The position numbers were made by a program, and so were the translations under genes. 64,000 bases of DNA from Prevotella koreensis. Lineage in GTDB: Bacteria > Bacteroidota > Bacteroidia > Bacteroidales > Bacteroidaceae. Position 1 is the stretch's first letter; each line of letters opens with the position of its first letter. The notes beneath the pieces are model-generated. The model worked only from the letters and a program-made list of their open reading frames with translations, had not been told where the DNA came from and searched no databases. The stretch lies in the NCBI RefSeq assembly GCF_003977605.1, contig NZ_RYYU01000001.1, forward strand, positions 1,812,539 through 1,876,538, given 5' to 3'. Shown here piece after piece: positions 4,793 through 61,511 of this stretch.

Positions 4793-4877
4793 ACCAAAAT
4801 AGGCGAATTTGCTGACCAAAATGGGCGAATTTGCAAACCAAAACAGGCGAAATTGGTGAGCAATTTCGCCTGTTTTG
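4793..4877. repeat. 22-nt-period GGCGAAWTTG repeat with terminal hairpin (copy 1 of 4)
   Basis: Two consecutive 22-base units (ACCAAAATAGGCGAATTTGC type) are followed by a third that ends in a perfect 16-bp hairpin: AAAACAGGCGAAATTG, a 4-5 base loop, then CAATTTCGCCTGTTTT. It lies between the XRE promoter and the regulator gene ending at 5052. Related copies occur at 23838, 49059 and 59129. The hairpin could end transcription, but the direct units before it need another explanation. Confidence 0.85.
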
Positions 4878-4879
4878 AT

Positions 4880-5051
4880 TTACCATTCAATATCTTTTTC
4901 ATTCCGGTTACGCATTAACATTGCATAAATCTCATAAGGATTGTAATGACCGATTTGTTTTTTAACTTTATGTCCTTTTTGTTTTTCTGTCCCCGGAACC
5001 TGTCTTTCTGTCCTAAACTTTCTGTCTTTCTGTCCCAAAAAACTGCAAATG
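4880..5051 (-). other. Intergenic stretch with an open frame lacking a clear start
   Basis: On the minus strand a frame runs in from inside the regulator gene and ends at TAA 4882-4880. Its tail reads GHYNPYEIYAMLMRNRNE followed by KDIEW. The region before this is rich in D, R, K and Q, from a repeated GACAGAAAGAC-type sequence at about 4985-5035. No start codon with a ribosome-binding site is visible. It may be the 3' remnant of a lost gene or an untranslated region. Confidence that it encodes anything is low. Confidence 0.3.
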
Positions 5052-6370: not shown

Positions 6371-6512
6371 TTTTTAGTTATCTATTGTGCTTTTGCAGGT
6401 AGCATTTACATGGTGTTTGGAACTGAGGTTTATGTAGTTCGTGGTTCCGATGGTCAAGATACGGATTCAAAGAAGTTGTGTGTTTACTAATTTATATATA
6501 GGAGATTTGGTT

Positions 6513-7355
6513 ATGAAACATTTGAAATTTTATTTGTTGTTTTTGTTTTCTGCAGTTTTGCCATTGTCTCATGCCAATGCTCAGGAGCATGAGGAGTATT
6601 ATCCACAAGGAACAACATGGGAAGAAGAGAAATTCTATGTTACAGACGATGGTAGGCTCTTTGCCGAATACCGGAAATATAAAGTGGATGGCGTTACGAC
6701 TTTCAATGGAAAGATATATAAGACAATCAAAGTGACCTATTCCAATCTTCTTGATGAGAGAACCTATTTCAACCCAATGGATACATGGAATTGGGTTGAA
6801 CAGCCGAAAATTCTCTTTCGCGAACAAGGCGATTCTATATTCTATACCAGATGGAGAAAGAATCATGAAGCATTGCGCTATGATTTCAACTGGAGTATAG
6901 GAAAAAAAATTCCCACATATTATGATTGGTGGTCAAGAGAATATCAGTATGAGGAAATAAAAGATATACATCAGGTTGTGTTATATGATGGTCAGATGTA
7001 TGATTGCATAGGGTATCATACATTGACAGATTCTGTTTCCTTTAAATTATACCAGATAAAAGGAGTCGGTTTTGTTGATAATTTTAGAGGTATTTTTGAT
7101 GTCCCCGGAGGTTATTCATTTTCCTTAAAATACCTAGATTACAAAGTAAGAATTTTCATCCGCAATGGTAAGATAATATATAAATGGGATCGTGATGTGG
7201 ACAAAATTCTTGGAATTGATAAGGTTGGAAACGACGACGGACAGAAGTGCGGGAAGACATACACGGCGTATGGAACAGAGGTTGATGCGAGCGATATGCA
7301 ATCACTGCCACGTGGAATATATATCCGCAACGGAAAGAAGTTTGTGGTGAAGTAG
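6513..7355 (+). CDS. Exported protein with C-terminal sorting-type tail (tandem copy 1)
   Basis: 280 residues from the ATG at 6513, chosen because AGGAG lies just upstream and the protein then begins with a signal peptide (residues 1-23, ending SHANA). The frame is open further upstream, but that part is repeated leader. The body is rich in aromatic and charged residues (Y, W, K, D) with no family I recognise. The last 50 residues carry GTEVDASDMQSLPRGIYI followed by RNGKKFVVK, the short tail seen on many Prevotella exported proteins and resembling type IX secretion sorting domains. The protein is probably surface-exposed or secreted. It is identical to copy 2. Confidence 0.85.
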   Translation: MKHLKFYLLFLFSAVLPLSHANAQEHEEYYPQGTTWEEEKFYVTDDGRLFAEYRKYKVDGVTTFNGKIYKTIKVTYSNLLDERTYFNPMDTWNWVEQPKILFREQGDSIFYTRWRKNHEALRYDFNWSIGKKIPTYYDWWSREYQYEEIKDIHQVVLYDGQMYDCIGYHTLTDSVSFKLYQIKGVGFVDNFRGIFDVPGGYSFSLKYLDYKVRIFIRNGKIIYKWDRDVDKILGIDKVGNDDGQKCGKTYTAYGTEVDASDMQSLPRGIYIRNGKKFVVK

Positions 7356-7499
7356 GCTTTTTAGTTATCTATTGTGCTTTTGCAGGTAGCATTTACATGG
7401 TGTTTGGAACTGAGGTTTATGTAGTTCGTGGTTCCGATGGTCAAGATACGGATTCAAAGAAGTTGTGTGTTTACTAATTTATATATAGGAGATTTGGTT

Positions 7500-8342
7500 A
7501 TGAAACATTTGAAATTTTATTTGTTGTTTTTGTTTTCTGCAGTTTTGCCATTGTCTCATGCCAATGCTCAGGAGCATGAGGAGTATTATCCACAAGGAAC
7601 AACATGGGAAGAAGAGAAATTCTATGTTACAGACGATGGTAGGCTCTTTGCCGAATACCGGAAATATAAAGTGGATGGCGTTACGACTTTCAATGGAAAG
7701 ATATATAAGACAATCAAAGTGACCTATTCCAATCTTCTTGATGAGAGAACCTATTTCAACCCAATGGATACATGGAATTGGGTTGAACAGCCGAAAATTC
7801 TCTTTCGCGAACAAGGCGATTCTATATTCTATACCAGATGGAGAAAGAATCATGAAGCATTGCGCTATGATTTCAACTGGAGTATAGGAAAAAAAATTCC
7901 CACATATTATGATTGGTGGTCAAGAGAATATCAGTATGAGGAAATAAAAGATATACATCAGGTTGTGTTATATGATGGTCAGATGTATGATTGCATAGGG
8001 TATCATACATTGACAGATTCTGTTTCCTTTAAATTATACCAGATAAAAGGAGTCGGTTTTGTTGATAATTTTAGAGGTATTTTTGATGTCCCCGGAGGTT
8101 ATTCATTTTCCTTAAAATACCTAGATTACAAAGTAAGAATTTTCATCCGCAATGGTAAGATAATATATAAATGGGATCGTGATGTGGACAAAATTCTTGG
8201 AATTGATAAGGTTGGAAACGACGACGGACAGAAGTGCGGGAAGACATACACGGCGTATGGAACAGAGGTTGATGCGAGCGATATGCAATCACTGCCACGT
8301 GGAATATATATCCGCAACGGAAAGAAGTTTGTGGTGAAGTAG
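7500..8342 (+). CDS. Exported protein with C-terminal sorting-type tail (tandem copy 2)
   Basis: The encoded protein is identical, residue for residue, to that at 6513-7355, and the DNA appears identical across the entire 987-bp unit. The start at 7500 follows the same AGGAG site and signal peptide. Because the leader is duplicated as well, each copy probably has its own promoter, so dosage may be the immediate effect. Identity at this level means either a duplication within recent generations, gene conversion, or an assembly artefact at a repeat; sequence alone cannot decide. Function is unknown. Confidence 0.85.
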   Translation: MKHLKFYLLFLFSAVLPLSHANAQEHEEYYPQGTTWEEEKFYVTDDGRLFAEYRKYKVDGVTTFNGKIYKTIKVTYSNLLDERTYFNPMDTWNWVEQPKILFREQGDSIFYTRWRKNHEALRYDFNWSIGKKIPTYYDWWSREYQYEEIKDIHQVVLYDGQMYDCIGYHTLTDSVSFKLYQIKGVGFVDNFRGIFDVPGGYSFSLKYLDYKVRIFIRNGKIIYKWDRDVDKILGIDKVGNDDGQKCGKTYTAYGTEVDASDMQSLPRGIYIRNGKKFVVK

Positions 8343-8486
8343 GCTTTTTAGTTATCTATTGTGCTTTTGCAGGTAGCATTTACATGGTGTTTGGAACTGA
8401 GGTTTATGTAGTTCGTGGTTCCGATGGTCAAGATACGGATTCAAAGAAGTTGTGTGTTTACTAATTTATATATAGGAGATTGGGTA

Positions 8487-9338
8487 ATGAAACATTTGAA
8501 ATTTTATTTGTTGTTTTTATTTTCAGCATTTTTGCCATTGTCTCATGCTAATGGTCAGGAGCATGGGGAGTATTATCCACAAGGAACAACATGGATTGAA
8601 GAGAAATTCTACGTTACATATAATGATGGATTCTTTTCCGAATTCCGTAAATACAGGGTGGATGGGGGAACGGATTTCAACGGAAAGAAATATAAGATAA
8701 TCAATGTGGATTATCGTAAGTTGGCCAATTCGGAAGACTATTACGACCCTATTGAAACATGGAATTGGATTGAACAGCCGAAAATTCTCATTCGCGAACA
8801 AGGCGATTCGATATACTATATTAGGCCGGGAAAAGACCATGAAGCCCTGCGCTATGATTTCGACTGGCATATAGGAAAACAGATTCCTATATATTATGAT
8901 TGGTATGAAAATAAATATTATTATGAGAAATTAAAAAAAATCTATAAGGTCAAATTGCTTGATGGTAACACTTATGCTTACATTAGATATCAAGTTGAGG
9001 GTGCTCCGGAACGTACGGATATATTCCAGATAAATGGAATTGGTTACACCGGTTACGATGGACTATACGAAGGGATTTTTGATGGTGCCGATGGTTTTTT
9101 TCTTTCCTTACGGTATAGAGATTACAAACTTATCAGTTTCACCCGAAATGATCAGTTGATATATAAATGGGATCGTGATGTGGACAAGATATTGGGTATT
9201 GATAAGGTTGAAAACGACGACGGACAGAAGTGCGGGAAGACATACACGGTATATGGAACAGAGGTTGATGCGAGCGATATGCAATCACTGCCACGTGGAA
9301 TATATATCCGCAATGGAAAGAAGTTTGTGGTGAAGTAG
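8487..9338 (+). CDS. Exported protein with C-terminal sorting-type tail (diverged tandem copy 3)
   Basis: 283 residues from the ATG at 8487. The leader, the first 20 or so residues (one V-to-F change and few others) and the last 55 residues nearly match copies 1 and 2. The central part (about residues 40-225) is only moderately similar: for example YNDGFFSEFRKYRVDGG replaces DDGRLFAEYRKYKVDGV, and a three-residue insertion is present. A conserved frame around a variable middle suggests diversifying selection on the exposed part, or end-to-end gene conversion. It has the same signal peptide and SLPRGIYIRNGKKFVVK tail. Function is unknown; a surface or secreted location is likely. Confidence 0.85.
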   Translation: MKHLKFYLLFLFSAFLPLSHANGQEHGEYYPQGTTWIEEKFYVTYNDGFFSEFRKYRVDGGTDFNGKKYKIINVDYRKLANSEDYYDPIETWNWIEQPKILIREQGDSIYYIRPGKDHEALRYDFDWHIGKQIPIYYDWYENKYYYEKLKKIYKVKLLDGNTYAYIRYQVEGAPERTDIFQINGIGYTGYDGLYEGIFDGADGFFLSLRYRDYKLISFTRNDQLIYKWDRDVDKILGIDKVENDDGQKCGKTYTVYGTEVDASDMQSLPRGIYIRNGKKFVVK

Positions 9339-9424
9339 TGTTTGGAGCGGAGGTTTTTTAAATTCGCGAATAAACTGTATGTAGGAAAAAACAATAATAT
9401 CCGATAAATCGGGTTTATATAGCA

Positions 9425-10629: not shown

Positions 10630-10734
10630 GGAAATGTCATGGCAGAGATTGATGGAACGGCAATAAAATAGGCTGCAACGTGAAAAAATCCATGTTACAG
10701 CCCTTTGGTAGAATTCTTTTAATACCTGTATTTT

Positions 10735-11460
10735 CTATAATGAGTAATAGGTTATAGTACGTTTCTCTACCTCTTCCTCATTGGTTATTGTCTTGTTCTT
10801 TTCCTCGCCTTCTTCCCATTGCTCACTGTGTTGCTTGCACTTGCGCTCTATCCAGTTGCCTTGCTTGTCGAATTTGGTGTAAGTGTAAGTTCTCGTAAAC
10901 TTCCCGATATCCGCAGACATTAGCCAATCTTCTACTTGTTTGATGCAAAGACCATCGCTATTATATTTATATTCAATTTCGCTTCCGGTTTCCCAGCCAT
11001 TGCTCAAAAGTTTAATAACTTGCCCATTGGCGTTATAAGTAATTTCCTTGATATCGAGAAACCAGTGCCTATCATCTAATTTCGGTTCGTAAGCATATCT
11101 GATAAGTTGTCCTTTTGCATTCCGCTTAGACGAGAAATATTTGCCCACAGCGTTTCCGTTCTCGAATTTGAAGTCCTTTTCTTCGTCATTGCACGGGCAT
11201 GAAACAAGCATGCCATTCTCATCGAAGGTCACGGTATATGTTTCTTCTCCATCGTATTTCACTGTCTTGACATGACCTTTCACATCGAAGAGCATAAGGT
11301 CAGGGCTAACGAATTTGGCGTTGTCGGTAGCACTTTTTGCCACCTTGTCGTTTTTGTTTGAAATACTATCCGACTTTGAGCCGTCATTTTCCACTTTCTT
11401 GTTGAGATTGCATGAAGTCATAACCGCCATACAAAGCCCTAAAAAAATAATTCTCTTCAT
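10735..11460 (-). CDS. Lipoprotein with YD/RHS-like segments (paralogue 1)
   Basis: 241 residues with a lipoprotein signal: the lipobox MTSC places the modified cysteine at residue 17. The mature part has repeated short strands like those of RHS/YD proteins: TYNANGQVIKLLSNG, IEYKYNSDGLCIKQV and YTYTKFDKQGNWIERK. The order matches the gene next to it, 64 bases upstream on the same strand, and the C-termini end in near-identical KTITNEEEVEKRTITYY segments. It is probably anchored in the outer membrane, facing the periplasm or the surface. No enzymatic motif is visible and the function is unknown. Confidence 0.85.
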   Translation of the reverse strand: MKRIIFLGLCMAVMTSCNLNKKVENDGSKSDSISNKNDKVAKSATDNAKFVSPDLMLFDVKGHVKTVKYDGEETYTVTFDENGMLVSCPCNDEEKDFKFENGNAVGKYFSSKRNAKGQLIRYAYEPKLDDRHWFLDIKEITYNANGQVIKLLSNGWETGSEIEYKYNSDGLCIKQVEDWLMSADIGKFTRTYTYTKFDKQGNWIERKCKQHSEQWEEGEEKNKTITNEEEVEKRTITYYSL

Positions 11461-11523
11461 AGTTACTTTAAATTTATATATTGGTGTTATTTGGTAGGTT
11501 GCTAATGCCTGTATGATTTATAA

Positions 11524-12240
11524 TCAGTAGTAGGTGATTGTTCGTTTCTCTATCTTTTCCTCATTGGTTATTGTCTTGTCGTCTTCTTCATCGAATGTCC
11601 ATTCCTCACTGTGTTGCTTGCACTTGCGTTCTGTCCAGTTGCCTTGTTCGTCGAATTTGGTGTAAGTGTAAGTTGTCGTAGCCTTATAGACTAATGATTC
11701 CATTTGTGCATCATCTACTTCTTCGATGCAAAGGCCTTCGTTATTATATTTATATTCAGTTTCGCACATGCTTTCCCAGCCGGAAGTTAGAAGTTTAGAA
11801 ACTCGTCCGTCGGCATTATAAGTTATTTCCTTTACATCAAGGAAGTAGCATAATTCGCCTTCCGGTCTGTAAGCATATTCTGTAAGTTGGCCTTTGTTGT
11901 TGCGCTTAGACGAGAAATATTTGCCCACAGCCTTTCCGTTCTCGAACTTGAAGTCCTTGTATTCGTTATTATAATTGCATGAAGCAAGCATACCATTCTT
12001 GTCGAAAGTAATGACGTATGGGTTTTCACGATGATATTTTACCTCCTTGACATGGCCTTTCACCTCGAATAGCAAAAGGTCAGAGGTAATGAATTCGGCA
12101 TCGTCGAGAAAGGCTAATATGGCCTTGCCGTTAATGTTTGAGAGACTATCAGACTTAGACTTATCATTTTCCCCTTTCTTGTTGGTATTGCATGAAATCA
12201 TAATTCCCAAACAAAGCCCTAAAAAAATAATTTTCTTCAT
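11524..12240 (-). CDS. Lipoprotein with YD/RHS-like segments (paralogue 2)
   Basis: 238 residues, paralogous to the gene at 10735-11460 along its full length. The lipobox MISC gives a modified cysteine at residue 17. The matching landmarks are ITYNADGRVSKLLTSGWES, TEYKYNNEGLCIEEV and YTYTKFDEQGNWTERK. It is the promoter-proximal member of the pair. Divergence from its neighbour is substantial outside these segments, so the duplication is older than that of the 6.4-9.3 kb array. Function is unknown; an envelope location follows from the lipobox. Confidence 0.85.
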   Translation of the reverse strand: MKKIIFLGLCLGIMISCNTNKKGENDKSKSDSLSNINGKAILAFLDDAEFITSDLLLFEVKGHVKEVKYHRENPYVITFDKNGMLASCNYNNEYKDFKFENGKAVGKYFSSKRNNKGQLTEYAYRPEGELCYFLDVKEITYNADGRVSKLLTSGWESMCETEYKYNNEGLCIEEVDDAQMESLVYKATTTYTYTKFDEQGNWTERKCKQHSEEWTFDEEDDKTITNEEKIEKRTITYY

Positions 12241-12276
12241 AGTTGCATTGTATTTTAAGATTTGTGTTAATTTTTA

Positions 12277-12320
12277 GTTTTACCGCCTTCATAAAATAGC
12301 CTTTACAAAGGCGGTAAAAC
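12277..12320 (-). terminator. Hairpin after the S46 peptidase gene
   Basis: Perfect 13-bp inverted repeat GTTTTACCGCCTT … AAGGCGGTAAAAC with an 18-base loop. It is placed 58 bases beyond the stop codon of the minus-strand peptidase gene and before the lipoprotein genes. On the minus strand the second arm is followed by a short A/T-rich run only, so termination strength is uncertain. Confidence 0.55.
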
Positions 12321-23774: not shown

Positions 23775-23837
23775 CAATAATCTGTTTATTATAATCATTT
23801 AGCAATCTTTTCTATGACGAAAGATATGCCATGGAAA

Positions 23838-23928
23838 ACCAATCCGGGCGAAATTGCAAAGCAAAATGGGCGAATTTGAAAAGTAATTTCGCCCATTTTG
23901 GTCAGCAATTTCGCCCATTTTGCTCTGC
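23838..23928. repeat. 22-nt-period GGCGAAWTTG repeat with hairpin (copy 2 of 4)
   Basis: Two direct units (GGGCGAAATTGCAAAG and CAAAATGGGCGAATTTG) are followed by two inverted units (TAATTTCGCCCATTTTG, CAATTTCGCCCATTTTG). The arrangement is therefore a two-by-two palindrome. It occupies the divergent region between the FKBP promoter and the gene at 24351. Confidence 0.85.
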
Positions 23929-23973
23929 TAAACATATGCTTTGGGAAACCCGAAGAGAAACCATTTGGTTTTC

Positions 23974-49058: not shown

Positions 49059-49122
49059 AATTTCGGCGATTTTGAAAAGTAAATTCGCCGAAATTGGTCT
49101 GCAAATTGGGCGAGATTGCTGA
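49059..49122. repeat. 22-nt-period GGCGAAWTTG repeat (copy 3 of 4, degenerate)
   Basis: AATTTCGGCGATTTTGAAAAG, then TAAATTCGCCGAAATTGGTC, then CAAATTGGGCGAGATTG. The first two form a stem of AATTTCGGCGA with TCGCCGAAATT. It lies between the toxin gene and the next promoter. Confidence 0.7.
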
Positions 49123-49206
49123 GGTAAAGGTGATGTATGAGAAACTAAGACGGTATTAATGATTGGCTTGTATTAGGTTTCTTGTTCAGAAAAGTGTGGC
49201 GTACTA

Positions 49207-55191: not shown

Positions 55192-56544
55192 GTGTACGAT
55201 ATAAATAAAGTGCGGGAAGATTTCCCGATATTGAGCCGCGAGGTGTATGGCAAACCGCTGGTATATCTCGACAATGCGGCTACCACGCAGAAGCCGCGTA
55301 TGGTGGTGGATGCGATGACTGAAGAATACTACAACGTCAATGCGAATGTTCACCGCGGTGTGCATTACCTCTCGCAGCAGGCCACCGACCTGCATGAGGC
55401 TGCCCGTGAAAATGTTCGTAAGTTCATCAATGCAGAAAAGATAGAGGAGGTTATCTTCACCCGCGGCACCACAGAGAGTCTTAATCTTGTGGCTTCGTCG
55501 TTCTCTGAGCAGTTCATGAAAGAGGGCGATGAGGTGATAGTATCGACAATGGAACACCATTCCAACATCGTTCCGTGGCAACTTCAGGCTGCGAAACGCG
55601 GTATAAAACTGCGCGTCATACCAATGACCGACGACGGACAACTGGTAATTGACGAATACGAACGGCTGTTCACTAATCGCACTAAGATAGTGAGCGTGGC
55701 CCATGTGAGCAATGCTCTGGGCACGGTTAACCCTGTTGCCGAAATAATACGCATTGCCCACGAACATGATGTGCCGGTGATGATAGACGGTGCGCAGAGT
55801 GCTCCGCACTTCAAGATTGATGTCAGGGAACTCGATTGCGACTTCTTCGCATTTTCCGGACATAAGATGTATGGCCCCACCGGTATCGGCGTGCTCTACG
55901 GAAAGGAGCGGTGGCTTGAGCAGATGCCGCCTTATCAGGGTGGGGGAGAGATGATAGACCGTGTCACTTTCGAGCATACCACTTTCGAGCGGTTGCCTTT
56001 CAAGTTTGAGGCCGGCACTCCCGACTATATCGCTACGCATGGACTGTCGCGTGCAATCGACTATATCGAGACTCTCGGCATGGACAATATCTCTGCCCAT
56101 GAGCACGAACTGACACGCTATGCGATGGAAAAACTGAGCGAGATTGAAGGCTTGCAAATCTACGGTCTGCCACTTTCCGCACCTGCGGGAACTCACGATG
56201 CCGTAGTCTCTTTCAATTTATTCAACCCCACCTCATCCCTCAACGCTCAACCATCATCCCTCAACGCTCCGCTCGGCTCCGACAATGGACGCTTTAACAG
56301 TGAAGCAGAGAAACAACGCTCAACGCTCAACGCTCAACGCTCAACCCTCATCCACCACCTCGACATCGGCACCCTCCTTGACCGTCTCGGCATCGCTGTG
56401 CGCACCGGACACCACTGCGCGCAGCCTATCATGGTTCGTCTCGGCATACTCGGAACCGTGCGTGCTTCTTTCGCACTCTATAATACGAAAGACGAGGTAG
56501 ATATACTTGCGGCGGGAATAGCCAGAGTGGCTAAAATGTTCTGA
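55192..56544 (+). CDS. sufS: Cysteine desulfurase SufS carrying an in-frame repeat insertion
   Basis: 450 residues from a GTG start, about 44 more than the usual 406. The fold-type-I PLP enzyme motifs are intact: IEEVIFTRGTTESLNLVA, EHHSNIVPWQ, DGAQSAPH, PLP lysine 225 in FSGHKMYGPTG, and catalytic Cys409 in RTGHHCAQP. Between AVVSFNLF (337-344) and LDIGTLLDRLGIAVRTGHHC (from 390) lies a block at about 345-389, SSLNAPLGSDNGRFNSEAEK plus QRSTLNAQRSTL, which is the translated dispersed element described separately. It is just N-terminal of the active-site cysteine segment. SufS supplies sulfur to SufBCD. Activity probably survives, as all catalytic residues remain, but this is untested. Confidence 0.9.
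   Translation: MYDINKVREDFPILSREVYGKPLVYLDNAATTQKPRMVVDAMTEEYYNVNANVHRGVHYLSQQATDLHEAARENVRKFINAEKIEEVIFTRGTTESLNLVASSFSEQFMKEGDEVIVSTMEHHSNIVPWQLQAAKRGIKLRVIPMTDDGQLVIDEYERLFTNRTKIVSVAHVSNALGTVNPVAEIIRIAHEHDVPVMIDGAQSAPHFKIDVRELDCDFFAFSGHKMYGPTGIGVLYGKERWLEQMPPYQGGGEMIDRVTFEHTTFERLPFKFEAGTPDYIATHGLSRAIDYIETLGMDNISAHEHELTRYAMEKLSEIEGLQIYGLPLSAPAGTHDAVVSFNLFNPTSSLNAQPSSLNAPLGSDNGRFNSEAEKQRSTLNAQRSTLIHHLDIGTLLDRLGIAVRTGHHCAQPIMVRLGILGTVRASFALYNTKDEVDILAAGIARVAKMF
56226..56353 (+). repeat. Protein-inserted element: heptamer arrays plus core (copy in sufS)
   Basis: On the left, 7-base-period sequence (CTCATCC, CTCAACG, CTCAACC …). A core of about 50 bases follows (CTCGGCTCCGACAATGGACG … GAAGCAGAGAAAC), then four exact CAACGCT units and one variant (56314-56348). 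Translated in the sufS frame, the core reads PLGSDNGRFNSEAEK. Three heptamers make 21 bases, exactly seven codons (STLNAQR), so copy-number changes by one or two would shift the frame. Confidence 0.85.
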
Positions 56545-57180: not shown

Positions 57181-57693
57181 ATGACCGCTTCAGATTTTAA
57201 ATACCTTTTCCTGCCCTGTCATAAGCAGATGTATTGGGTAGCAATGCGTCTCACCGCTAATACTGCAGAGGCTGAAGACTTGGTGCAGGAGGCTTTTATG
57301 AGGTTGTGGCTGAAGCGCAACGATATTCATGACCTTGAGAGTCCGCTCTCTTTTGGCATACGTACAATGCGCAACATATTCCTTGACAAGCAACGGAGAA
57401 GGCATATTGAAGAACGAGACTGCGACCCGGCAAGCATCGTAGTAAAGGAGAACAGCACTCCCGACAGCAATATGATTGCGGCGGAAACGATGCAACGCGT
57501 ACTCCTATTGATAGAAAAACTGCCCGAACAGCAGCGCCGGATAATAACGATGAAAGACCTCGAAGGCTATACGTTCGAGCAGATAGCACAGCAGATAGGA
57601 CTGTCTGAGGCAGGGGTGAGGACTTCGCTGAGCCGCGCACGACAAACCATAAGACAACAATTCAAAACAAACAATGAAGATGAAAAAATCTGA
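57181..57693 (+). CDS. ECF-type RNA polymerase sigma factor
   Basis: 170 residues with the sigma-70 region 2 (YLFLPCHKQMYWVAMRLTANTAEAEDLVQEAFMRLWLKRNDI, about 8-50; -10 recognition and core binding) and region 4 (LPEQQRRIITMKDLEGYTFEQIAQQIGLSEAGVRTSLSRARQTIRQQF, about 117-163; -35 recognition HTH). No other sigma regions are present, so it is ECF class. It directs RNA polymerase to a small regulon, likely including its neighbours. The following gene overlaps its 3' end by 20 bases, as expected of a sigma/anti-sigma-like pair. The inducing signal is unknown. Confidence 0.92.
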   Translation: MTASDFKYLFLPCHKQMYWVAMRLTANTAEAEDLVQEAFMRLWLKRNDIHDLESPLSFGIRTMRNIFLDKQRRRHIEERDCDPASIVVKENSTPDSNMIAAETMQRVLLLIEKLPEQQRRIITMKDLEGYTFEQIAQQIGLSEAGVRTSLSRARQTIRQQFKTNNEDEKI

Positions 57694-58228
57694 AACGGAC
57701 ATACTGGTAGAGAAATTCTTCAACGGAGAAACTACCGAAGAGGAGGAAAAACTGCTTCATGAAGCATCGCTCAACGCTCCTCTCGGCTCTGATAGGAAAC
57801 TCTTTCAAAGCGAAGCGGAGAAAGAACATTCATCGCTCATCGCTCAACGCTCAACACTCAACGCTCACCGCTCATCGCTCCTCCAATCCCTCACCCCCCA
57901 ACCTGAGGTTCCCCTCGGACTGGAACATCGACTTTCAAGACAGATAGACCAATGGAACAGCATTGAGAGAAGGTCGGAAAAGCGTGTCAGAATAGCAGTA
58001 ATGCGCTGGACGATAGGCATTGCCGCCGGTATCGCCCTCATCGTTGGAATAGCCATTCCGACACTACGTGAACCCGATGCCGTGAAGTATGCCGAGGAAC
58101 AGGAAACATATAACGACCCCGAAATGGCACAGAGAGAGGCGGAGAAAGCACTCGCAAAATTCTCTGACTGTATCAACAAAGGGTTTGACATAATGGATAA
58201 AACAACTAATAAAAACGTAAAACAATGA
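57674..58228 (+). CDS. Putative anti-sigma-like membrane protein carrying an in-frame repeat insertion
   Basis: 184 residues. The N-terminus (TDILVEKFFNGETTEEEEKLLHE, about 8-30) matches the cytoplasmic part of small Bacteroidetes proteins next to ECF sigma factors. A single transmembrane helix lies at about 111-132 (WTIGIAAGIALIVGIAIPTL) and a C-terminal soluble part follows. Between them residues about 31-72 (SLNAPLGSDRKLFQSEAEK, then EHSSLIAQRSTLNAHRSS) are the dispersed element also found in sufS, in the same frame. It overlaps the sigma gene (an alternative ATG is at 57680) and ends overlapping the next ATG by 4 bases. An anti-sigma role is inferred from position, not from a recognised domain. 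Confidence 0.75.
   Translation: MKMKKSETDILVEKFFNGETTEEEEKLLHEASLNAPLGSDRKLFQSEAEKEHSSLIAQRSTLNAHRSSLLQSLTPQPEVPLGLEHRLSRQIDQWNSIERRSEKRVRIAVMRWTIGIAAGIALIVGIAIPTLREPDAVKYAEEQETYNDPEMAQREAEKALAKFSDCINKGFDIMDKTTNKNVKQ
57764..57893 (+). repeat. Protein-inserted element: heptamer arrays plus core (copy in anti-sigma-like gene)
   Basis: Same order as in sufS: CATCGCT and CAACGCT units, a core (CTCGGCTCTGATAGGAAACT … TTCAAAGCGAAGCGGAGAAAG), then seven variable heptamers (TCATCGC, TCATCGC, TCAACGC, TCAACAC, TCAACGC, TCACCGC, TCATCGC). The core is translated in the same frame as in sufS: PLGSDRKLFQSEAEK. Confidence 0.85.
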
Positions 58229-58956: not shown

Positions 58957-59128
58957 GTTATGACTTTGCAACTGCAACCGTGGCATAAATAAAAAATGTT
59001 GCATTTGCGCTTGCAAAGTTACTGTTTTTATGCTTTATATCCAAATTTGCTACACTTTTATTTTCCAAAAGTTTGTGGATATGAAAGTGCTTGAATATCG
59101 TGGAAAATACTATCTGCCATAAATCGCA

Positions 59129-59214
59129 GAACAAAATGGGCGAAATTGCAAATCAATTTGGGCGAATTTGAAAACCAAAACAGGCGAAATTGATGAGCAA
59201 TTTCGCCTGTTTTG
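59129..59214. repeat. 22-nt-period GGCGAAWTTG repeat with hairpin (copy 4 of 4)
   Basis: Three direct units (CAAAATGGGCGAAATTGC, CAATTTGGGCGAATTTG, CCAAAACAGGCGAAATTG) end in the same hairpin as copy 1 (CAAAACAGGCGAAATTG with CAATTTCGCCTGTTTTG). It lies between the tRNA and metG. Confidence 0.85.
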
Positions 59215-59280
59215 CATTATATAAGTTGCTTCTTGGTTTGCTTTTGTGGCATAAGTCGTTGGCAAATAAGAGGTTAATCC

Positions 59281-59396
59281 GCTCACCGTTCATCACTCCA
59301 CTCGTTTCCGACAGGAAACGCTTTCAAAGCGAAGCGGAGAAAGAACGCTAAACATTCATCGCTCAACGCTCAACGCTCAACACTTACCGCTCAACC
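59281..59396 (+). repeat. Intergenic copy of the heptamer/core element
   Basis: The core here is the best palindrome of the three copies: CGTTTCC-GACA-GGAAACG and CGCTT-TCA-AAGCG, followed by GAAGCGGAGAAAGAACGC. Heptamer units follow (TCATCGC, TCAACGC, TCAACGC, TCAACAC). In the frame used by the coding copies the core reads PLVSDRKRFQSEAEKER and then a stop. It ends 3 bases before the metG stop codon. Confidence 0.85.
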
Positions 59397-59399
59397 AAA

Positions 59400-61511
59400 C
59401 TACCCTACCTGACTACCCGGCTTCACCTCATCATGAACCGTTGTCACATGTAGCGAACCATCAGCATTTACAGCAGAGAGAATCATGCCTTGACTTTCGA
59501 TGCCCATCATCTTGCGCGGTGCGAAGTTGGCAACGAACAACACCTGTTTCCCTATGAGTTGTTCCGGTTCGTAGTAGGCAGCAATACCACTGAGAATGGT
59601 GCGCTCCACGCCACTGCCATCGTCTATTGCGAACTGCAGAAGTTTCTTGGACTTCTTCACTTTCTCGCATCTCAAAACCTTTCCTACACGTATGTCCATC
59701 TTCTCGAAAGTGTCGAAGTCAACGTCAGCCTTTATCGGTTCGGCCTTATATTCGGCAGCCTCGTTGGCCTTCTTTGTATCTTCGAGTTTCCGGATTTGTT
59801 TTTCTATGGTCTCATCTTCTATTTTCTCGAAGAGCAGAGCAGGTTCTGCCAAGCGATGTCCTGGCTTCAAAATGTCGGCGCTTCCGAGACATTCCCATGT
59901 GAGTTGTGTCTCCGTTGTCGTTGCTTGTGTTGTGGCAGAAGAGTCGGCCATGTCGATGTTCAACATGTCCTGAAGTTTCTTTGACGAGAACGGCAGGAAC
60001 GGTTCGAAGGCGATGGATAGGTTTGCAGTGAGTTGCAGACAGATATTAAGTACCGTCTCCACGCGTTTCGGGTCAGATTTCCACACTTTCCATGGTTCAC
60101 ATTCCGTGATATAACGGTTGCCGAGACGTGCAAGATTCATTGCCTCGAACTGTGCTTCGCGGAACTTGAACTGGTCGAGCAACGTTTCGATTTTTGCTTT
60201 CACGCAACCGAGTTCTTCGAGAGTAGTCTTGTCTATGTCGAGCAACTCGCCACGCTCCGGCACCACACCATCGAAATATTTTTTGGTGAGTTGCAATGCG
60301 CGATTCACGAAGTTGCCATAGATCGCCACCAACTCCGAGTTGTTGTGCTCCTGAAAGTCCTTCCACATGAAGTTGTTGTCTTTCGTCTCCGGAGCGTTTG
60401 CTGTTAGCACATAGCGCAGCACATCTTGTTTGTCGGGCATTTCCACAAGATACTCATGCAGCCATACGGCCCAGTTGCGGCTTGTGCTTATCTTGTCGTT
60501 CTCAAGGTTCAGGAACTCGTTTGACGGCACGTTGTCGGGCATGATATACTTGCCGTGCGCCTTCATCATTGTCGGGAAGATGATACAATGGAACACAATG
60601 TTGTCTTTTCCGATGAAATGCACGAGTCGTGTATCCTTATCCTGCCACCATTTCTGCCATGTTCCCCACTTGTCAGGGTTGCTTTCGCAGAGTTCTTTGG
60701 TGTTTGATACGTAACCGATAGGCGCATCGAACCATACGTATAGCACTTTACCTTCAGCCCCTTCCACCGGAACCGGAATGCCCCAGTCGAGGTCGCGCGT
60801 CATTGCTCGCGGCTGTAAGTCCATATCGAGCCATGACTTGCACTGTCCGTAAACGTTCGGTCGCCATTCCTTATGTCCTTCCAAAATCCACTTTCTGAGC
60901 CAGTCCTGATACTTGTCGAGCGGCAGATACCAGTTCTTGGTGTCTTTAAGCACCGGTTCCGAGCCACTTATCGTACTCTTGGGATTGATGAGTTCTGTCG
61001 GCGACAGGTCGCGTCCGCATTTCTCACACTGGTCGCCATAAGCCCCCTCGCTGTGGCAGTATGGACACTCACCTATGATGTATCTGTCAGCAAGGAACTG
61101 ACGGGTTTCCTCGTCATAGTATTGTTTTGTTGTCTCCTCTATCAGTTTGCCCTCGTTATACAGTTTTTTGAAAAACTCTGAGGCGAACTTATGGTGCGTC
61201 TTGCTTGTTGTGCGGCTATACACATCGAATGATATGCCGAACTGCTCGAATGAGTCTTTTATCATTTTGTGGTAGCGGTCAACCACATCTTGCGGTGTAA
61301 TGCCCTCTTTTCTTGCGCGCATTGTCACCGGTACACCGTGCTCGTCCGAGCCTCCGATGAACACCACTTCTTCTTTTTTCAGCCTGAGATAGCGCACATA
61401 AATGTCGGCCGGTACATACACTCCGGCCAAGTGTCCGATGTGCACTCCGCCATTTGCATAGGGCAATGCCGATGTTACCGTTGTGCGCTTAAAGTTTTTC
61501 TTCTGTTCCAT
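59400..61511 (-). CDS. metG: Methionyl-tRNA synthetase
   Basis: 703 residues from the ATG at 61511, preferred over 61535 because the HIGH region then lies at the usual distance. HIGH is at residues 24-27 ([10 protein letters not shown]), the zinc knuckle in [18 protein letters not shown], and the KMSKS loop appears as KISTSRNW. Residues about 590-703 form a C-terminal tRNA-binding (EMAP-like) domain ([34 protein letters not shown]), which helps dimerisation. It charges tRNA-Met in the cytoplasm. A TATCTTTG element lies upstream (complement of about 61533-61540). A repeat element abuts the stop codon. Confidence 0.96.

Follow-up and report, generated by a model that had tools for sequence, protein, structure and literature searches.

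A dispersed heptamer-and-core repeat in Prevotella koreensis with copies probably filtered by their orientation relative to genes

A short repeat has probably spread through the genome of Prevotella koreensis, its surviving copies being filtered by their orientation relative to genes. The repeat comprises two parts, tandem arrays of the heptamer TCAWCNC and a core of about 48-53 nt that usually lies between arrays. Three copies occur in the window, the whole stretch of 64,000 nt analysed here: one in SufS, one in the open reading frame (ORF) that follows an ECF sigma factor, and one in the intergenic segment 59284-59400. The features concerned are the following, in window coordinates.

55192-56544, forward strand: gene for the cysteine desulfurase SufS (Pfam Aminotran_5, 1e-145)
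56233-56350, forward strand: element in SufS (heptamers 56233-56266, core 56267-56319, heptamers 56320-56347)
57181-57693, forward strand: ECF sigma factor gene, upstream of the second host (Pfam Sigma70_r2 and Sigma70_r4_2)
57674-58228, forward strand: second host ORF, 184 aa with an insert of about 36 aa, a small membrane protein directly after the ECF sigma factor
57764-57893, forward strand: whole element in that ORF (heptamer-like CATCGCTCAACGCTC, core, seven heptamers, then CATCGCTC again)
57777-57829, forward strand: core in this anti-sigma-like gene, frame 2, read PLGSDRKLFQSEAEKEH (genome position C1:1870315)
57830-57878, forward strand: seven tandem TCAWCNC heptamers in the same gene, read SSLIAQRSTLNAHRSS
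59284-59400, forward strand: intergenic copy, antisense to metG and just 3' of the metG stop codon

The product of the ORF at 57674-58228 is probably an anti-sigma factor; its operon comprises the ECF sigma factor and two DUF4252 proteins, and a Pfam search with the protein gave no match. A sequence-only reading had placed an element at 57764-57893 in this gene, and it does lie there, in frame within the 184-aa ORF.

The source genome (2.69 Mb, 99.9% complete) carries TCAWCNC arrays, the core of about 53 nt, or both at some 47 places, a count from which weak copies may be missing; 18-19 of the 47 are intragenic and the remainder lie outside ORFs. The stretches examined contain 30 core copies, and tandem cores stand at several sites. 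This recurrence is far beyond chance: the 57764-57893 block has 59 BLAST matches across the genome, the best non-self one with E 3.7e-28, and TCAACGCTCAACGCTCA occurs 188 times when two mismatches are allowed, versus 0 for a reversed-pattern control. Among 398 genomes of the same genus, heptamer arrays, including other TCAWCNC variants, were present in 173, and a core-plus-heptamer query matched 49, the core being a genus-wide repeat. Other Prevotella species also have the core without heptamers, between host-specific inverted flanks, some of which stem from a tRNA T-arm (loci L291, L292, L296, L305 and L306), and several of these heptamer-free cores lie inside duplicated tRNA T-arm sequence. 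A search of open-access literature gave no prior description of this repeat in Prevotella or bacterial genomes, and other journals may have one.

The repeat has been inserted cleanly into conserved enzymes. Judged from sequence, the inserts sit in otherwise intact AlaS, Era, Dxs, TopA, PurL, CbiD, TatD, PepP, and SufS; aligned to solved structures, SufS, Era, Dxs (two sites), and AlaS are interrupted nowhere but at the element, and Pfam domains run on both sides of the inserts in TopA, PurL, PcnB, CbiJ-CbiD, TatD, MatE, and others. The SufS insert lies between the strand VVSFN and IHHLD, where query residues 344-390 replace about 7 residues. It is absent in 29 relatives, and a search of the source genome found no second full SufS. 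The closest relative found (G390) is syntenic at the sigma operon, where the protein of the source genome is about 38 residues longer overall than its 81% identical counterpart, and G390 has EASLIPHLYPQSPVPEGLE at the position of the insert of about 36 aa. At the DNA level, G390 shows CATCGCTC and no array at this site, whereas the source genome has CATCGCTC on both sides of extra DNA spanning roughly 57772-57879. At the metG intergenic site, G390 has degenerate heptamers and no core. This DNA-level comparison of empty sites covers three loci and this one relative. The orthologue comparison proposed in the earlier reading thus yielded insert-free forms for both window proteins, and its expectation that a flexible insert can be accommodated is supported, the hosts being open and their nearest relatives having the empty form. 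The insert was also considered as a substitute for a native helix of the sigma-operon protein, a reading that was rejected since G390 and a further genome, G389, already lack that segment.

PepP carries related inserts at the same place in the source genome, G390, and G035; either an insertion may persist through speciation or this position is an insertion hotspot. The SufS proteins of G006 (L084) and G018 (L094) contain different heptad-like peptides in a neighbouring loop, which suggests independent insertions in the same protein. Elsewhere in the genus, 17 in-frame heptamers (about 40 aa) directly precede the LDLCAAPGGKS motif of an RsmF-like methyltransferase (L144, genome G120), and a CobT-like (nicotinate phosphoribosyltransferase) gene of another Prevotella species contains core and heptamers in frame (L299, genome G336).

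The two strands of the heptamer array differ sharply in stop content. A stop codon is impossible in any of the three forward frames of tandem TCAWCNC, because none of the trinucleotides in its concatenations starts with TA or TG; the complement, GNGWTGA, brings a TGA once per 21 nt in each frame. The distribution of copies follows this asymmetry. All 10 intragenic cores are in the sense orientation (two-sided binomial p about 0.002). Antisense arms do occur inside genes, namely AlaS, PurL (twice), PcnB, TopA, and Dxs, and there the in-frame TGA has been lost at 13 of 13 positions, becoming TTA, GTA, GGA, or something further removed, versus 8 of 41 positions in the other phases, where 33 are intact (Fisher p = 1.8e-7). 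Heptamer units in non-coding DNA retain TGA in 209 of 270 cases. This phase contrast is real even though openness is a condition of ORF calling, because the hosts are conserved genes with homology extending beyond the arm.

Outside genes, single-orientation arrays abutting a gene end are antisense to that gene in 14 of 14 cases, and inverted array pairs, a separate form of the heptamer arrays that is palindromic, are found chiefly where two genes converge, each arm being antisense to its own gene. The gene stop codon falls within the array in 17 of 27 cases, 15 of them in the TGA register of the heptamer, yielding tails such as LSVEG; examples from the 27 in the source genome are L014 (513323, 514634, and 515975), L028, L035, and the window copy 59284-59400. 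The orientation pattern is partially replicated in other Prevotella species, whose array-bearing loci (leaving out L113, which belongs to the source genome) include 12 intragenic sense copies, 9 antisense and 2 sense copies at 3' ends, and 8 that are unclassified.

These observations are best accommodated if the repeat lands largely irrespective of genes and its copies are then sorted through selection on their orientation. With stop-proof heptamers and a stop-poor core, sense copies whose length is a multiple of three would survive in tolerant loops as in-frame linkers. Antisense copies, which carry TGA in every heptamer frame, would survive only at a gene end, often supplying the stop codon, or inside a gene only after every in-frame TGA has mutated. 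The most likely copying process would be recombination or gene conversion between heptamer arrays serving as homology arms, together with array slippage, and the copies would be neutral or mildly costly rather than useful. Neighbouring copies in the source genome lie less than 3 kb apart in 11 pairs versus 2.4 expected (0 of 5000 simulations), and the same 33-nt arm, ATGTTGAGCGTTGAGCGTTTAGCGTTGAGCGAAAA, is found at two PurL sites; the clustering, this arm, and the tandem cores would suit such exchange through heptamer arms. No mobilising enzyme was found, and no transposition event was observed. More speculatively, the repeat may be a genus-wide spreading element that is useful both ways, as an any-frame linker in sense and a stop or terminator cassette in antisense, and that, through transposase-free array recombination, acts as a source of new loops and C-termini in housekeeping genes; this extension is conceivable but doubtful.

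A functional gene-end signal, in which antisense 3' arrays provide all-frame stops or transcription termination and intragenic copies are by-products, is an unlikely account that nonetheless draws on the same orientation data. Besides the consistent antisense placement at 3' ends, the stops inside arrays, and the partial recurrence in other Prevotella species, the inverted pairs at converging genes would fold into long hairpins, and UCAACGC repeats are predicted to be unstructured. Rho-loading sites are C-rich and unstructured, and the UCAACGC strand may be said to resemble them. Arrays also hug stop codons more tightly than filtering alone would lead one to expect, since a sense copy immediately 3' of a stop should do no more harm than an antisense one; an added function or a target preference is therefore possible. 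However, array-bearing genes are a minority, the intragenic places are numerous, and much of the pattern is expected from filtering by stop content.

Mobilisation by a transposase, as a miniature element of the MITE type or as a REP sequence moved by a RAYT or Y1 transposase, is distinctly unlikely. The core is a discrete module that recurs throughout the genus in varied contexts, frequently flanked by host-specific inverted sequences. The genus-wide core alignment contains two pairs with compensatory changes, and a conserved CTTTC/GAAAG pair becomes CTTGC/GCAAG in three sequences. The form with core and direct heptamers, however, lacks the terminal inverted repeats of MITEs, the cores of the source genome being flanked by direct heptamers, and neither the core nor the core with heptamers folds better than shuffled sequences (z -0.78 and +0.72). 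As to target site duplication, CATCGCTC flanks the sigma-operon insert on either side, but these letters double as heptamer sequence. A RAYT origin was rejected on adjacency, as the sole Y1_Tnp gene of the source genome has no heptamers beside it; this gene (C1:94459-94800, L257) is flanked by its own unrelated REP-like repeats. REP and REPIN sequences are likewise short, high-copy, and dispersed, but the core in the source genome is not clearly palindromic and many copies are intragenic. A Porphyromonas gingivalis MITE with a minisatellite (PMC4596501) is, as far as its description goes, a comparable dispersed repeat of the Bacteroidales that combines tandem units with an element body. Rfam gave no family match at the core in 12 loci, and two sub-threshold Acido-Lenti-1 matches fell elsewhere in those loci.

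Independent expansion of heptamers from short seeds by slippage, with the core as an unrelated passenger, would fit the other TCAWCNC variant arrays among the 173 array-bearing genomes and the heptad-like peptides in the neighbouring SufS loop of G006 and G018, but it is quite improbable. The recurrence of the core in one setting at 30 places, the identical arm at the two PurL sites, and the local clustering together require copying between sites.

Lastly, the proposal that one reading frame is kept through selection on the hydrophilic linker peptide it encodes fits the shared frame of the two window hosts, their hydrophilic inserts, and the predicted flexibility of the SufS insert, but it is very improbable indeed, being largely refuted by frame usage and synonymous counts. 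The core is translated as PLGSDRKLFQSEAEK in the anti-sigma-like gene and PLGSDNGRFNSEAEK in SufS, and the sequence-only reading was right that both use one frame. All three frames are nevertheless occupied by the 10 intragenic cores: two in frame 0 (PurL and an LPG-synthase-like protein), four in frame 1 (Era, TatD, MatE, and the first core in CbiD), and four in frame 2 (SufS, the sigma-operon protein, the second core in CbiD, and Nth, whose N-terminal call is uncertain). A common frame in two hosts is therefore a 1-in-3 event, and the copies are spread across frames while their hosts are not disrupted, which is half of the outcome that the sequence-only reading had named as refuting it. The heptamers are free of stops in the frame described earlier, but this is not specific to it: the peptide S-T-L-N-A-Q-R has the same cyclic reading in all three forward frames, as a 7-nt repeat must give. 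Peptides expected from inserts in SufS, Era, or AlaS include STLNAQR and SEAEKEHSSLIAQR.

Substitution counts point the same way. Relative to the consensus, nine intragenic cores show 16 synonymous and 28 non-synonymous changes (16/44), and the synonymous shares of non-coding cores in frames 0, 1, and 2 (24%, 54%, and 25%) lead to an expectation of about 14, so that substitutions once taken to preserve the peptide carry no sign of selection for it. Coding cores contain no stops in the frame used and 8 across the other two frames. Openness is protected, and the core peptide shows no sign of protection; of the suggested selection for an open linker, the openness stands, but selection on frame or peptide is not supported. 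The intergenic window copy has a notional peptide matching the coding copies and encodes PLVSDRKRFQSEAEKER in the same notional frame, and the SEAEK likeness therefore reflects common descent. Openness itself is unremarkable, since 14% of mononucleotide shuffles of the core lack stops in three forward frames, and 69% of all possible heptamers lack them in the forward direction; dinucleotide shuffles say nothing about stops, as TA and TG are both absent from the core. Among non-coding cores, 14 of 20 are open in all three forward frames.

The description of the inserts as disordered, hydrophilic linkers holds in part. Both window inserts are hydrophilic (GRAVY -0.72 and -0.99), and the AlphaFold model of SufS assigns the insert a pLDDT of 43-61 versus mostly >90 elsewhere, which is consistent with a flexible loop. 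The sigma-operon protein, by contrast, is modelled with a helix through the insert rather than disorder, in a weak model (pTM 0.26).

The closest behavioural parallel is with the palindromic elements of Rickettsia (RPE) and Wolbachia, dispersed selfish-type repeats of 100-150 bp, of which many RPEs lie in frame in preexisting ORFs, in exposed regions, with their hosts undestroyed (PMC3767692, PMC10969869). The Prevotella repeat is similarly dispersed in and outside ORFs and forms in-frame inserts in intact hosts (SufS, Era, Dxs, and AlaS). RPEs, however, are palindromic with a conserved peptide, whereas the Prevotella repeat consists largely of direct heptamers, uses three frames without peptide conservation, has its outcome decided by orientation to the gene, and belongs to another phylum. 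It may be regarded as functionally like RPE and is not filed as a member. The TAACTGA heptamer repeats of Beggiatoaceae are also tandem 7-nt direct repeats at many loci that are strain-specific and whose mechanism of spread is not known, but they are mostly intergenic and found mainly before start codons (PMC4679880), whereas the Prevotella arrays lie inside genes or hug stop codons at 3' ends, and many flank a core. Among other bacteria, the cyanobacterial heptanucleotide STRRs are comparable, with direct repeats of 7 nt in tandem at many loci.

Repeats that invade protein genes in frame have been described mainly in Rickettsia and Wolbachia, and a comparable process can now be followed in a free-living gut and rumen genus with many sequenced species. 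A simple rule, namely which strand bears the stops, would explain copy survival, and insertion, loss, and protein tolerance are testable across hundreds of genomes. Two cautions follow for annotation: a frame and peptide shared among repeat copies need not mean peptide selection, and annotated proteins of these species contain non-native segments.

The window also holds a second dispersed family, intergenic palindromic units of about 22 bp (GGCGAAATT), at 4795-4904, 23818-23949, 49065-49145, and 59110-59241, and this family is present near metG in G390 too. Long tandem repeats of about 987 and 780 nt occupy 6371-9343 and 10720-12280, respectively.
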